From a virus: a stretch of DNA of 20,338 nt. The notes below the pieces were generated by a model. The model saw only the letters and a list, made by a program, of their open reading frames with translations. It ran no database searches and had not been told where the DNA came from. This document shows, one piece after another, positions 1 through 11,386 of this stretch (the first letter of the stretch is position 1; each line of letters begins with the position of its first letter). The stretch lies in the IMG/VR virus record IMGVR_UViG_3300045777_000042, positions 1-20,338 of that record, one strand, 5' to 3'. Made by a program: the position numbers and the translations under genes.

Positions 1-582
1 CGCCTGCTTGAACCGGCTCGCGCGTTCCTCTGGCGTCAGTTCGGCCATGGCGCCCTGATAGCGCAATGACCGATCCGCATCGCGATACTTATCGACGATC
101 TTTTTGACCTCTTCCTTGCCGGTGTGCGCGGCGAGGTAGCCGACGCCCAGAGGCAGCAGATTAAACCGCGACCCTTTTGTGGCGTCCTTTTGGTCGCCGC
201 CCGGCGCGGCGGTCGTCCGCCGCTGCGCCGCCGAGAAGGCCGCCTGTTCCCGCTTCACCGCCCGCAATGAGGCGATGGTCTGAGACTCCCAGGCTTTGAC
301 GCCTGCGGCCTGCGATTTCGTCCAGGACGACGCGTTGCCCGCCAGTCCGGCAGAAGCCGCGTAATTCTTCCATGCCGATGCGACCTGCTCGATGTCGCTT
401 TTGGCGACGCGAAGCTTCGAGAGCGACGCGACAAACTTGTCTGTCGCGCCCGTACCGGCCATCGCCTTGGACACCGCCTTGATTTCGGACTCCGTGTCCT
501 TCAGGGCTTGCGCGACGGAGCGGGCGGGCTTCGTCACGTCGTCCTTGAGCATGATCGACAGTGTCGATGTCAGATTCGCCAT
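1..582 (-). CDS. T: Tail tape measure protein, N-terminal part (truncated by window edge)
   Basis: Tape measure proteins fill the tail tube lumen, set tail length and are ejected ahead of the DNA. The first 194 residues are visible and no stop occurs before the window edge. The protein opens MANLTSTLSIMLKDDVTKP and continues with alternating charged and alanine-rich helical sequence (residues about 20-120), as in the N-termini of Mu/P2-type tape measures. A short hydrophobic stretch lies around residues 143-155, with lysine- and arginine-rich sequence after it. The start is the ATG inside a TAATG junction with the -1 frame of the chaperone gene upstream, so translation is probably coupled. 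A GAAGGG lies about 10 bases before it. Identity rests on this position directly after a frameshifting tail chaperone and on composition. The diagnostic long body of the protein is outside the window. Confidence 0.85.
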   Translation of the reverse strand, partial: MANLTSTLSIMLKDDVTKPARSVAQALKDTESEIKAVSKAMAGTGATDKFVASLSKLRVAKSDIEQVASAWKNYAASAGLAGNASSWTKSQAAGVKAWESQTIASLRAVKREQAAFSAAQRRTTAAPGGDQKDATKGSRFNLLPLGVGYLAAHTGKEEVKKIVDKYRDADRSLRYQGAMAELTPEERASRFKQA

Positions 583-1051
583 TAAACCAGCCCTTCAATG
601 CGCATCGCTTCCCGCATTTCCGCCAGAAGCTCATCCCACGCCATGGCCATGATTTCAGCCATGGACCAGCCGATTATGCGCTTGACGAAGGCCCGATAGG
701 AGCGCCATCCGCCGGGGGCGAAGTTTCCTCCGGCGCGGCCCGGAACCGGCGGGGCAAAAAATCGCGGGCGGCCTCGTCCAGAGCGAACTTATCGTCGTCG
801 TCGAGCGCGGAAAGCACGGCGTCAGGAATGAGATCGCCAGCGGCGTCGCGGAACATCGGAAGCCGCGCCATGGTGACGCCAGCGTCGTCATCGAGACCAT
901 CGATAAAATCCGCCACCTCTTTCACCGTCAGCCGAGAGACATGAACCTCGCGATATTCCTTCCCGCCAAATTCCACCGGCCAGTCGAGCGCAACCGTTTT
1001 CGCGCGCGACTTGCCTCCGACAAATGTCGCGACCGCTTTTTCTTCACTCAT
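582..1051 (-). CDS. E': Tail assembly chaperone, long frameshift fusion (E+E')
   Basis: This is the predicted -1 frameshift product of the chaperone gene. Zero-frame codons run from 1051 to 755 (99 residues). Reading then resumes one base back and continues for 57 codons to the TAA at 584-582. The fusion of about 156 residues adds a C-terminal domain containing GGWRSYRAFVKRIIGW followed by the helix SMAEIMAMAWDELLAEMREA. No stop occurs in the -1 frame before the junction, and its stop overlaps the tape measure start as TAATG. In P2, lambda and Mu the long form carries the part that binds the tape measure protein. The family rule and the reading frame are established; production of the fusion here is inferred. 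Confidence 0.85.
674..1051 (-). CDS. E: Tail assembly chaperone, short (zero-frame) form
   Basis: This 125-residue protein corresponds to P2 gpE / Mu gp41-type tail assembly chaperones, which coat the tape measure protein during tube polymerisation. The N-terminal half (VALDWPVEFGGKEYREVHVS, then LTVKEVADFIDGL) has the beta-beta-alpha layout of that family. An acidic stretch follows around residues 82-93 (LSALDDDDKFALDE). The ATG at 1051 is preferred over a TTG two codons upstream, because it gives MSEEKAVATF. The upstream AAGGCG would serve either. The C-terminal 26 or so residues after the slippery site are proline- and serine-rich (ending GPSSSA) and look like a disposable tail read only when no frameshift occurs. 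The gene sits between the tail tube and tape measure genes, exactly where P2 E lies. Confidence 0.88.
   Translation of the reverse strand: MSEEKAVATFVGGKSRAKTVALDWPVEFGGKEYREVHVSRLTVKEVADFIDGLDDDAGVTMARLPMFRDAAGDLIPDAVLSALDDDDKFALDEAARDFLPRRFRAAPEETSPPADGAPIGPSSSA
755..761 (-). promoter_or_regulatory. Programmed -1 frameshift slippery site T TTT TTG
   Basis: The minus strand reads GAT TTT TTG in the chaperone frame, so the heptamer T TTT TTG is correctly phased as X XXY YYZ. This is the same slippery type known for P2 E/E'. An SD-like GAGG (772-775) lies 10 bases upstream, a spacing known to stimulate -1 slippage in bacteria. Downstream, CCGCCGG (746-752) can pair with CCGGCGG (709-715), and other GC-rich pairings are possible. 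The pairing begins only about two bases after the heptamer, so its role as a stimulator is uncertain. Confidence 0.88.
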
Positions 1052-1110: not shown

Positions 1111-1641
1111 TCAGCCGATGCGCAAAATCGCGTTGATTGCGGCAAGCTGATCGACGCCGTTAACCCGCCACTGGCTGGCGAAGAAGTCGTAATAATAAAG
1201 CTCCGACTTGTTCCAGAACAGCGAATAGCGCGTGATTTCCTTGATTTCATGCGTCTGGTCGGCGAGGTCGCCGCGCTTGAATTCGGACGCCTCGACGGAG
1301 GTCAATCGCCCCCAGGCCACCGCCTTCAGCTCAATCGGCGTGTTGCCGTTCTTGTCGCGAATGACGCCGTAAACGGTATAGGGCTTCGTCCCGGTCGATC
1401 CGAGACCGAATTGCGCCATCGTCTGCTGATCGTAGCCGGCAAGCTTGAAGCCGATGGTCAGCGCGTCAATGCCAAGCCCGGCGATTTCGATGGCGCCGAT
1501 GGCGCCGCCGGCATGGTGTTCCTGCGTCTTCTCCGACAGCTTCGGAAGCGTGACGCCGGAAATTTGCAGGTGCTTGGAATTATTCGGGCCGTCATCGGAA
1601 GCGAACAGGTTGACGGTTTCTGGAATCCACAGAGATGCCAT
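1111..1641 (-). CDS. FII: Major tail tube protein (P2 gpFII family)
   Basis: This 176-residue protein forms the inner tube of the contractile tail, through which DNA passes. It matches P2 FII-type tubes in length and pattern: an N-terminal NLFASDDGPNN segment, then GVTLPKLSEKTQEHHAGGA, the central IAGLGIDALTIGFKLAGYD, and a C-terminal TRYSLFWNKSELYYYDFFAS leading to GVDQLAAINAILRIG. The ATG at 1641 follows AGAGG with 6 bases between. The gene lies directly after the sheath gene and before the chaperone gene, as in P2. A weak 5-bp inverted repeat (1094-1098 / 1106-1110) immediately follows its stop. It appears intact. Confidence 0.93.
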   Translation of the reverse strand: MASLWIPETVNLFASDDGPNNSKHLQISGVTLPKLSEKTQEHHAGGAIGAIEIAGLGIDALTIGFKLAGYDQQTMAQFGLGSTGTKPYTVYGVIRDKNGNTPIELKAVAWGRLTSVEASEFKRGDLADQTHEIKEITRYSLFWNKSELYYYDFFASQWRVNGVDQLAAINAILRIG

Positions 1642-1705: not shown

Positions 1706-3559
1706 TCAGGAGATATATTGCGGGGCGAGGGTCGAAGCCTGCGCAATCAGCGTGGCGAGTTCGACCGTAAGCGCGTCGTAATAGTCGGAGGCGTTGACGG
1801 TGACGACGGTGATCGGCGCCGGGATTTCGTTCGAGAAGTCCAGCGTGAAGCGGCCCTGCTGCAACTCGCTCGGGCTGTTCAGCGACGGGTCAAAGCTGAC
1901 CTTGAAGCCGAGCGAAACCTGATTGGCGAGAAGGTAGGAGCCGAGCACAATCATGTCGTTCTCGACCGCCTGAATCGCGTGAGGCGTCACATTGTCCACG
2001 CCGAGACGCAGGCGGATCGACTTGAGCAGCGCGAGATAGACGAAGTCCTTGCCGCGCCGCTTGTTGTAGAACCACTTGAGCGGATCGGTGGACGCGTTCC
2101 ACACGCCTACCCAGACGAAGCCGCTTGACGAAACCGCCGTGTCGGAGCCGATCACGCCTTGCTCGATCACGCTGATTTGCTGCGCCAGAAGCTGTTGGCC
2201 CTGCGTCGCGCCATCCGTGAGGCTGAACGGGTAGTAATTTTTCAGCCCGCCGATGCCCTGCACCTGCTGGCCGGAAATCGACCAGAACGGCAGGCCCTTG
2301 TGCTGGAAATCGACCGCGACGAACAGGCCGAGGGCTTCCGCCACACCATCCGTATAGCCGGAACCGGACCCGGGAATGACCCATGCGTCGGCGGGGATGA
2401 GGCGATCCGAGGCGAGCGTCTGGCGCCAGGCGTAATCATCGGCCAGCACGCCCGTTCCGGGACCGCCGACAACGGCGACGCCAAGCAGCGAATTCAACAC
2501 GGCGGGAAGCGCGGCAGTGATCGGGTTGGCGACCGCCGAACCGGCGACGCCGGTCACGGTGAGGTCGAACCCGTCGCCGATGGCGTAATCGGTCGCGCCG
2601 TCATTGATCGTGAAGGCCACCTGCGAGGCATAGGCCGAACCAACGGACGCCGTGGCGAGATAGGCCCCATTGGGCGCCTGCACCGAGAACACGCCGCCGT
2701 TGGTCGGAACCGCCTCGACGACGGTAATCACGAAAGCGTCGCCGACGATGAAATCTGCCAAGCCGTCCGCGATGGTGAAATTGACCGCGCCGACGAACGG
2801 CGTCGCCACAACAGCTTCGCCCACGTCCAGCCCCGTCGGAGACTGGACAGAGAAGCGTCCGCCGTTGACCGCAGTCGAAACGCAAGTGACGGTCCACGCG
2901 CCCTTGGCCGTCGTGCTGCTTCCCGCGCTGACGCCGGAAATCAGACCATTGCCGGTATTGCCGCCCGCCTTGATCGCAGCGGTCGCAGACCGGCCGCCGC
3001 CCGTGCATCGCACCTTGTAAGTCCCGATGATCGCGCCGGCCAGAAACGCGGGCGCACCGAGCGTGACCGTGCCGTTGCCGATATTGCCGCCGCTCTTGGC
3101 CGCGCTGGCGACCGCCGTCGAGCCGCCGCTCGCCGTGACGATGCGCCCGGTGTAGCCCGGCGAGGCGATCAGGCGCGGGATCGCGCCAAGGCGCGGGCCT
3201 GCCGACAGCAGTGCGTAAAGGCCGGTCCCCGCCGCCTGCGAGCCGACGATATTGGCGATAGTGTCGTCGATGGTCGATCCGCGCTGAACCAGCACGGCGA
3301 CGATCTGCGCCGCCGACTGGAAAAGCGCCAGTTGATTGTCGATTGACTTGATCGCGTTGGAGAAATCGCCAGTTCCGGCCTCCGACAAAAACGCAGTGTC
3401 GGACGAATTGAACACTACGGGAGTATTGAGCGGAAACGTCGTGGCGTCGGCGTCGTCCGCCGGCAGCACGAGGCCAATCACGGAAAGGTCCGCAGCCTGT
3501 ACCGGCCGGGGAGAATTCGTGCTTTCCAGAATGTTGATGCCATAGGTGGGCGATGTCAT
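1706..3559 (-). CDS. FI: Contractile tail sheath protein (P2 gpFI family) with internal insertion
   Basis: Sheath subunits surround the tail tube and contract to drive it through the cell envelope. The N-terminal part (residues 1-140) starts PTYGINILESTNSPRPV and has the sheath pattern GLVLPADD followed by NTPVVF. The C-terminal part (about 345-617) carries the conserved AWVIPGSGSGYTDGVA, GLPFWSISGQQVQGIGG, SSGFVWVGVWN and DFVYLALLKSIRLR segments. At 617 residues it is clearly longer than P2 FI (about 400). The extra length is one block, residues about 142-342, of glycine- and threonine-rich beta sequence. The start is well supported: AAGGAG lies 6 bases before the ATG. The sheath precedes the tube gene as in P2. 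Both conserved halves are in frame, so the insertion looks functional rather than disruptive. Confidence 0.93.
   Translation of the reverse strand: MTSPTYGINILESTNSPRPVQAADLSVIGLVLPADDADATTFPLNTPVVFNSSDTAFLSEAGTGDFSNAIKSIDNQLALFQSAAQIVAVLVQRGSTIDDTIANIVGSQAAGTGLYALLSAGPRLGAIPRLIASPGYTGRIVTASGGSTAVASAAKSGGNIGNGTVTLGAPAFLAGAIIGTYKVRCTGGGRSATAAIKAGGNTGNGLISGVSAGSSTTAKGAWTVTCVSTAVNGGRFSVQSPTGLDVGEAVVATPFVGAVNFTIADGLADFIVGDAFVITVVEAVPTNGGVFSVQAPNGAYLATASVGSAYASQVAFTINDGATDYAIGDGFDLTVTGVAGSAVANPITAALPAVLNSLLGVAVVGGPGTGVLADDYAWRQTLASDRLIPADAWVIPGSGSGYTDGVAEALGLFVAVDFQHKGLPFWSISGQQVQGIGGLKNYYPFSLTDGATQGQQLLAQQISVIEQGVIGSDTAVSSSGFVWVGVWNASTDPLKWFYNKRRGKDFVYLALLKSIRLRLGVDNVTPHAIQAVENDMIVLGSYLLANQVSLGFKVSFDPSLNSPSELQQGRFTLDFSNEIPAPITVVTVNASDYYDALTVELATLIAQASTLAPQYIS
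2534..3136 (-). repeat. Duplicated beta-rich domain inserted in the sheath protein
   Basis: Residues about 142-342 of the sheath hold internally repeated motifs. These are SGGNIGNGT and AGGNTGNGL (156-164, 198-206); GGRFSVQSPTG and GGVFSVQAPNG (233-243, 288-298); and VNFTIADGLADFIVGDAFVI and VAFTINDGATDYAIGDGFDL (259-278, 314-333). From general family knowledge, the NFTI-DGA-DF-VGD-F pattern recalls beta-sandwich repeats seen in some phage decoration-type proteins. It probably forms one or two surface lobes on the sheath. The function is unknown. Confidence 0.75.
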
Positions 3560-10247: not shown

Positions 10248-10625
10248 CTAAAACGTGATGATTTCGGACGAGGCGACGGTAAAATCGCCCTCAAGCGCGT
10301 TTGGCCGATAGTCGCCGGAAATCTGCACGCCGAACTGGCCCTGTTGCAATCGATCGGTGGAATTATCCGCGCCGGGATAGCCGACCTGCCTCACGCGAAA
10401 GCGCGGCTCCCACAACTCGACGGCGATGGCGACGGCAACATAAAAATTCAGCAGCACTTGCGGCGTCAGGTTGGCCTTGCCGAGCAAGGACGGGACAGCG
10501 GATCCGAAGGTGCGGCGCATCACGCGGGTGCCGATGGGCGTGGTGAAAATCACATGCAGCGATTGCTTGACATGCGCGAGGCCGGTCAGGACGCGGCCTG
10601 TCCTGCGGTTAACGCCGGCCGTCAT
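10248..10625 (-). CDS. W: Baseplate protein W (P2 gpW / T4 gp25 family)
   Basis: This 125-residue protein of the gp25-like lysozyme-fold family has a structural wedge role in contractile tails. Diagnostic sequence includes GLAHVKQSLHVIFTTPIGTR, VMRRTFGSAVPSLLG and a closing ALEGDFTVASSEIITF. P2 gpW (115 residues) and T4 gp25 have the same IFTTPIG-R-M-P-FG core. The ATG overlaps the TGA of the preceding hydrophobic protein. J starts 8 bases after its end. It is not the lambda gpW, which is a head-tail joiner and also occurs in this window (17557-17775). Confidence 0.92.
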   Translation of the reverse strand: MTAGVNRRTGRVLTGLAHVKQSLHVIFTTPIGTRVMRRTFGSAVPSLLGKANLTPQVLLNFYVAVAIAVELWEPRFRVRQVGYPGADNSTDRLQQGQFGVQISGDYRPNALEGDFTVASSEIITF

Positions 10626-11386
10626 GTTGCGATCATTTCGTCTGTCGCCGCTTTCATCGTGGCGAGGTGCTGCGGCTGGATCATCGACTGAAACACGCCT
10701 TGTAAAGCATCGCCGCCCGCGCCCGATACAATCGCGGCCATAGCCGACACCGACGAAACCGATGAGGCCGCTCCCATAAGATCGTCGTGCGCCGCCGTCG
10801 CGTTGGATACGACGCCAGTGAGCGTCGAAGCCATGCCATTGACCGTAGCGATGGCGTCCGTCACGGCGACAGTCCCGGAGATGACGCCATTCGTCACACT
10901 CGAAAGCGTCGACGCCATGCTGCTCAACTGGCTCGTCATCTGCAACGGCGCGGTGATCGCGGCGGGCAAAGACTGCCCAATCATGGAGCTGACGTTGCTC
11001 GCGGCGACAAGACTGAGCGGACCAATATCGCCAGACGTGATGCCGGAAAGGGCGTTCGTGAATGACTGGACCGACGACACGGCGCCAGACAAGCCTGACA
11101 CAGCCGAAGCGAGGCCGCCAATCCCGGGGATGCCGGCGGCAGCCGACAGCGCCGCCGTCACGCTGCCTATCTGGCCGTTGAGCGCCCCAATCGCCGCGCC
11201 GACCGGGTTTTGCAAAATCGAGGCAATGCCGCCCGCTTTGACCAGGGATAGCAACGGCGCGAGGTTCCCGCCTTCAATGGATTTGATGATCTTCAGCTTT
11301 TCAGCGAAGACGCTCGCGGTCTTGAGTTGAGGCGATCCGCCTATCAGCCCAAGCACAATGTTTTTGACATCCGGTATCGAAAGCAT
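10622..11386 (-). CDS. Hydrophobic, charge-poor protein inserted between V and W
   Basis: This is a 254-residue protein that I do not recognise. The first 50 residues are mixed (MLSIPDVKNIVLGLIGG, FAEKLKIIKSIEGG). From residue 51 to 199 only two charged residues (D120 and D177) occur. The rest is alanine, serine, glycine, valine, threonine and leucine (for example AAIGALNGQIGSVTAALSAA and GLASAVSGLSGAVSSV). The last 55 residues regain some charge (QHLATMKAATDEMIAT). P2 has no gene here. The context (spike gene before, gp25-type gene after, ATGA overlap) says it is a tail part. Candidate roles are a tail tip, hub or membrane-interacting component. The start is 10 bases after the V stop, with GGGG 5 bases upstream. 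No signal peptide or clear single transmembrane helix was seen. Confidence 0.7.
   Translation of the reverse strand: MLSIPDVKNIVLGLIGGSPQLKTASVFAEKLKIIKSIEGGNLAPLLSLVKAGGIASILQNPVGAAIGALNGQIGSVTAALSAAAGIPGIGGLASAVSGLSGAVSSVQSFTNALSGITSGDIGPLSLVAASNVSSMIGQSLPAAITAPLQMTSQLSSMASTLSSVTNGVISGTVAVTDAIATVNGMASTLTGVVSNATAAHDDLMGAASSVSSVSAMAAIVSGAGGDALQGVFQSMIQPQHLATMKAATDEMIAT

Follow-up and report, generated by a model that had tools for sequence, protein, structure and literature searches.

Does the short gene ahead of the tape-measure gene in this viral DNA encode two tail-assembly proteins, the longer one made by a -1 ribosomal frameshift as in phage P2? The stretch that we analysed, called the window below, has 20,338 bases and takes in the whole of an IMG/VR fragment. 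A sequence-only reading had proposed a frameshift cassette of the P2 E/E' design at one end of it, with a correctly phased slippery heptamer, a Shine-Dalgarno (SD)-like GAGG 10 bases upstream, a GC-rich inverted repeat downstream, a short, low-complexity zero-frame tail and a -1 frame open for 57 codons that ends as TAATG at the tape-measure start. The features of this region, from upstream to downstream, are as follows.

1111-1641, minus strand: tail tube protein FII (Pfam PF04985 Phage_tube, E 2.8e-27), adjoining E upstream.
674-1051, minus strand: gene E, tail assembly chaperone; zero frame of 125 aa, ATG at 1051, stop at 676-674.
772-775, minus strand: internal Shine-Dalgarno-like GAGG, exactly 10 nt upstream of the heptamer.
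755-761, minus strand: slippery heptamer T_TTT_TTG in the zero frame of E, reading GA(T TTT TTG) CCC.
674-754, minus strand: zero-frame tail of E, 3' of the heptamer; low-complexity, with lengths that vary between relatives.
582-755, minus strand: E' extension in the -1 frame, 57 codons (755-585) plus the stop TAA (584-582).
1-582, minus strand: start only of the tape-measure gene T (open reading frame and TAATG overlap), cut by the contig end.

These coordinates agree with every position stated in that reading and bear out most elements of the proposal: the position and phase of the heptamer, the spacing of the GAGG at 775-772, the 26-codon zero-frame tail (PRRFRAAPEETSPPADGAPIGPSSSA, then the stop at 676-674) and, by an open-frame check, the 57 open codons of the -1 frame, the last A of the E' stop TAA being the first base of the tape-measure ATG at 582.

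The identified genes of the window all lie on the minus strand and include a terminase, a portal protein, an S49-type protease, decoration and major head proteins, baseplate W, baseplate J and fibre-like genes. The tail end of the gene order runs from the sheath (PHROG 23) through the tube protein FII (PF04985) and E (PF10109) to the tape-measure start. E is flanked by FII and T, as in a P2-type cassette, with T named by its position alone, after E/E' as in P2; a Pfam search with the tape-measure fragment gave no family match. The genome is a mosaic of a P2-like contractile tail and of head and packaging genes that resemble those of lambda (gpA terminase, S49 protease, decoration). The sheath protein (1706-3559, minus strand) has 617 aa against the 496 positions of the PHROG sheath profile that it matched and appears to carry a mid-protein Gly/Ala/Val-rich insert of repeated units. 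Adjoining baseplate W is a Ser/Ala/Gly-rich protein of 254 aa (10622-11386, minus strand), for which no match was found in Pfam or PHROG.

The E protein matched Pfam PF10109 (Phage_TAC_7) at 25.5 bits (E 1.4e-5), a borderline score with the cut-off at 25, and the E+E' fusion matched the same family at 27.1 bits; E also matched PHROG 166, tail protein. A tblastn search with E found no relative among 50,697 annotated phage records.

The products gpE and gpE+E' of phage P2 were reportedly treated by Christie et al. in 2002. The P2 record NC_001895 annotates E, an E+E' join (-1, T6G) and T in the same order as here, and the P2 T6G frameshift has been described (PMC3931495). P2 E belongs to PF10109 and P2 E' to PF06528. 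The two loci share the order FII-E-E'-T, the T_TTT_TTG site, an E' of 57 codons, an E in PF10109 and an upstream SD-like element, which reads AAGG(TGG) in P2. They differ in that the P2 sequence is very divergent from that of the window, that the zero-frame tail past the heptamer has 26 codons here against 6 in P2, and that the head genes of the window are lambda-like, not P2-like; moreover, P2 has a possible GUG start, whereas the window has no start codon near the beginning of E'. The E' of the window alone matched no Pfam family, and PF06528 (Phage_P2_GpE) was recovered in 2 of 16 relatives (best E 0.0017) and in P2 E' itself (E 2e-22). When the -1-frame peptide was compared with P2 E' by means of a profile built from these 16 relatives, the two aligned over 39 columns (hhalign probability 86%, E 5e-6).

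Relatives of E were gathered by protein search of viral contigs and genomes, plus two DNA patterns. The heptamer was counted in the 41 non-redundant loci found by protein search, the loci found only by the DNA patterns, which included the heptamer, being excluded. A T6N sequence occupied the same two codons in 35 of the 41 (27 T6G, 4 T7, 3 T6A and 1 T6C, the T7 relatives being L033, L034, L064 and L072), so that the heptamer was conserved among homologs. Since TTT accounts for just 23% of Phe codons and TTG for 9% of Leu codons in these 41 loci, the site lies far from the codon-usage expectation. In the window itself, the heptamer contains the sole TTTTTT of the 20 kb, both strands counted, and the spelling of Asp-Phe-Leu as GAT TTT TTG has a probability of about 0.013 under the window's own codon usage. 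A -1-frame E' of similar kind was present in 39 of the 41 relatives, namely the 35 with T6N and four with degraded heptamers; the remaining two (L026 and L055) had neither a slip-capable site nor E'.

The four degraded heptamers comprise three of the form T-TTT-NNN (T-TTT-ATG in L032, T-TTT-CTT in L065 and T-TTT-ACG in L069) and one T-TTC-TTG (L078), all of them with E' kept in the -1 frame. Their sequences suggest slippage in which the P-site tRNA alone would re-pair. The upstream SD-like pairing energy was retained in L032 (-7.6 kcal/mol) and L069 (-5.9 kcal/mol). Another variant was seen in Mannheimia phage 587AP1 (L212), whose P2-type E carries G_GGA_AAG in place of T6G; the type of slippery site thus appears to have been switched within the P2 group.

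The -1 frame bears the mark of coding constraint. In 11 disjoint pairs of relatives, substitutions past the zero-frame stop fell 76/52/157 on positions 1/2/3 of the -1-frame codons (p 1e-14), and those in the overlap 35/30/54 (p 0.018). In the overlap, changes are most frequent at the second position of zero-frame codons, which is the third position in the -1 frame, as expected if the -1 frame were under stronger constraint than the zero frame. Gene order, the family of E, the identity and phase of the heptamer, the homology of E' and the -1-frame constraint all agree with the P2 E/E' design. We thus consider it very probable, from these comparisons, that the locus, in a phage whose contractile tail is P2-like, is the E/E' tail-assembly-chaperone frameshift gene and would make a minority E+E' fusion by -1 slippage. 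As far as its sequence tells, it adds a divergent member to the established P2 E/E' frameshift class, and the presumed mechanism is not new.

What might stimulate the shift? The GAGG of the window, at its spacing, has an anti-SD pairing energy of about -5.9 kcal/mol, and this spacing falls inside the 9-14 nt known for SD elements acting on -1 shifts (PMC5009743). In 49 relatives under 80% identical, the averaged anti-SD energy profile dipped sharply for 8-mers whose first base lay at -18 to -14, to a mean of about -4 to -5 kcal/mol versus -0.9 for the whole profile. A short SD-like word ended 10 nt from the site in 25 of 59 loci and 9 nt from it in 8 of 59. Because [KE]-[AV] residues yield AAGG or GAGG regardless, complementarity was compared with a synonymous-codon null in which codons were redrawn with each locus's own usage. 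The observed value in the 49 relatives was -5.68 against -4.02 for the null (z -5.0, 0/300; nine control positions, z -1.1 to +3.0), and the test repeated on 16 other P2-type phages, P2 among them, yielded z -3.2 (0/300; seven control positions, z -0.4 to +2.6), z-values which overstate the certainty because the spacing window was fixed after the first profile had been seen and the loci share ancestry.

An internal SD has apparently been selected at the site across many relatives, and base pairing of the GAGG with the 16S anti-SD probably makes slippage more frequent. The wider proposition, that P2-type T6G sites in general, from this divergent group to P2, would be stimulated by a selected SD-like element about 10 nt upstream, we regard as evenly balanced between true and false. 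Since the shift in certain tailed phages has been described as seeming to involve no stimulators (PMC5009743), a selected SD would be a modest addition. A literature search with combined terms found no paper on SD elements in tail frameshifts; the element at P2-type sites may already have been noted in the original P2 paper.

In the alternative that best survives, the GC-rich hairpin downstream is the main cause of the frameshift and the SD is incidental. The inverted repeat that the sequence-only reading had pointed to is present as sequence (for example UUCCGG...CCGGAG), but it folds at chance level: in five folding windows, the downstream sequence gave no stabler fold than its dinucleotide shuffles did (z +0.45 to +1.12), so that such a repeat is expected from the GC content anyway. 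The relatives speak more in favour of a hairpin, the folding z of the group being lowest exactly at +7 (-0.86 +- 0.18, other positions ranging from +0.14 to -0.73) and strong hairpins standing about 6 nt past the heptamer in L010, L023, L011 and L076. In a species-swap test, pairing of a locus's own 5' arm and 3' region beat that with swapped species at +23 (p 2e-4) and also at +38, but the test was positive at +68 as well, beyond the expected position, and no common downstream structure recurred among the relatives. A mainly hairpin-driven shift is therefore improbable in our view. We make no claim for a downstream hairpin as stimulator, the window fold being at chance and the group profile and swap test suggestive without being position-specific; the evidence can be explained without one.

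Considerably less likely is that E' is a separate protein, translated from an internal start or through coupled re-initiation, and that the heptamer is incidental. This possibility gains some credit from annotation. A scan of viral contigs for P2 homologs had yielded 80 near-identical loci, unfit for the study of evolution, and 18 diverse P2-type records were used instead; in their feature tables, E' appeared as a separate short gene in 10, as a join in 4 and was omitted in 4. In the window, however, the first start codon of the E' frame is codon 32 (ATG 662), with no ATG, GTG or TTG earlier; initiation there would leave out the first half of E', which is conserved, and no SD precedes this ATG in the sequence. 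The heptamer, moreover, is kept with E' and absent where E' is absent. In P2-type records E' is often mis-started rather than lost. For this window, the loss of E' in automatic annotation that had been expected is nonetheless likely, as none of its first 31 codons is a start codon.

The -1 frame could also be reached through slippage of the RNA polymerase on the T6 run, giving an mRNA with one extra U, a reading to which the homopolymeric run and its extension to T7 in four relatives lend some colour. A run of six T is, however, short for transcriptional slippage, the site is always in the X_XXY_YYZ phase, the SD-like element stands at a distance known from ribosomal -1 shifts, and the four relatives with degraded heptamers keep E' with runs of just three or four T; we hold this explanation to be slightly less probable still than a separately initiated E'. 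Least credible of all, and already contradicted by the comparative data, is the view that the second frame is open by chance, belongs to a pseudogene or results from faulty assembly: such a GC-rich genome does have many long spurious open reading frames (140 of 50 aa or more), but an identical E occurs on a second contig (L002), and dozens of diverged phages keep E', with substitutions that are periodic in the -1 frame.

Returning to ribosomal frameshifting in E, we infer the slippage itself, its stimulation by the SD and the roles of both proteins as follows. Most ribosomes would read E and stop at 676-674, producing the 125-aa chaperone. In a minority, the P-site tRNA on TTT and the A-site tRNA on TTG would move back by one base and re-pair on TTT TTT, a slip that pairing of the GAGG with the anti-SD would boost, and these ribosomes would go on in the -1 frame to produce a 156-aa E+E' fusion with the junction ...ARDFL-APPVPGR.... 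By analogy with lambda gpG/gpGT and with P2, the abundant E would coat the tape measure, and the less frequent fusion would recruit tube subunits through its E' domain. Lambda likewise encodes, ahead of the tape measure, a tail chaperone together with a -1 fusion made in smaller amounts (PMC5009743). Its heptamer is G_GGA_AAG and that of the window T_TTT_TTG, and the two systems are not known to be related in sequence. The -1 frameshift of E. coli dnaX also has an internal SD upstream of its heptamer (PMC5009743), but combines an A_AAA_AAG site with a downstream hairpin, whereas here the hairpin is unsupported and the effect of the SD is a presumed one.

For this group, for which no relative was found in annotated phage records, the frameshift is backed by comparison and not only by eye, and E+E' can be annotated from the exact coordinates above. 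A testable claim on the tuning of such low-level phage frameshifts comes from the SD-like element upstream, which has apparently been selected. In this divergent phage group, as in P2, the frameshift would set the proportion in which the two tail-assembly proteins are made.
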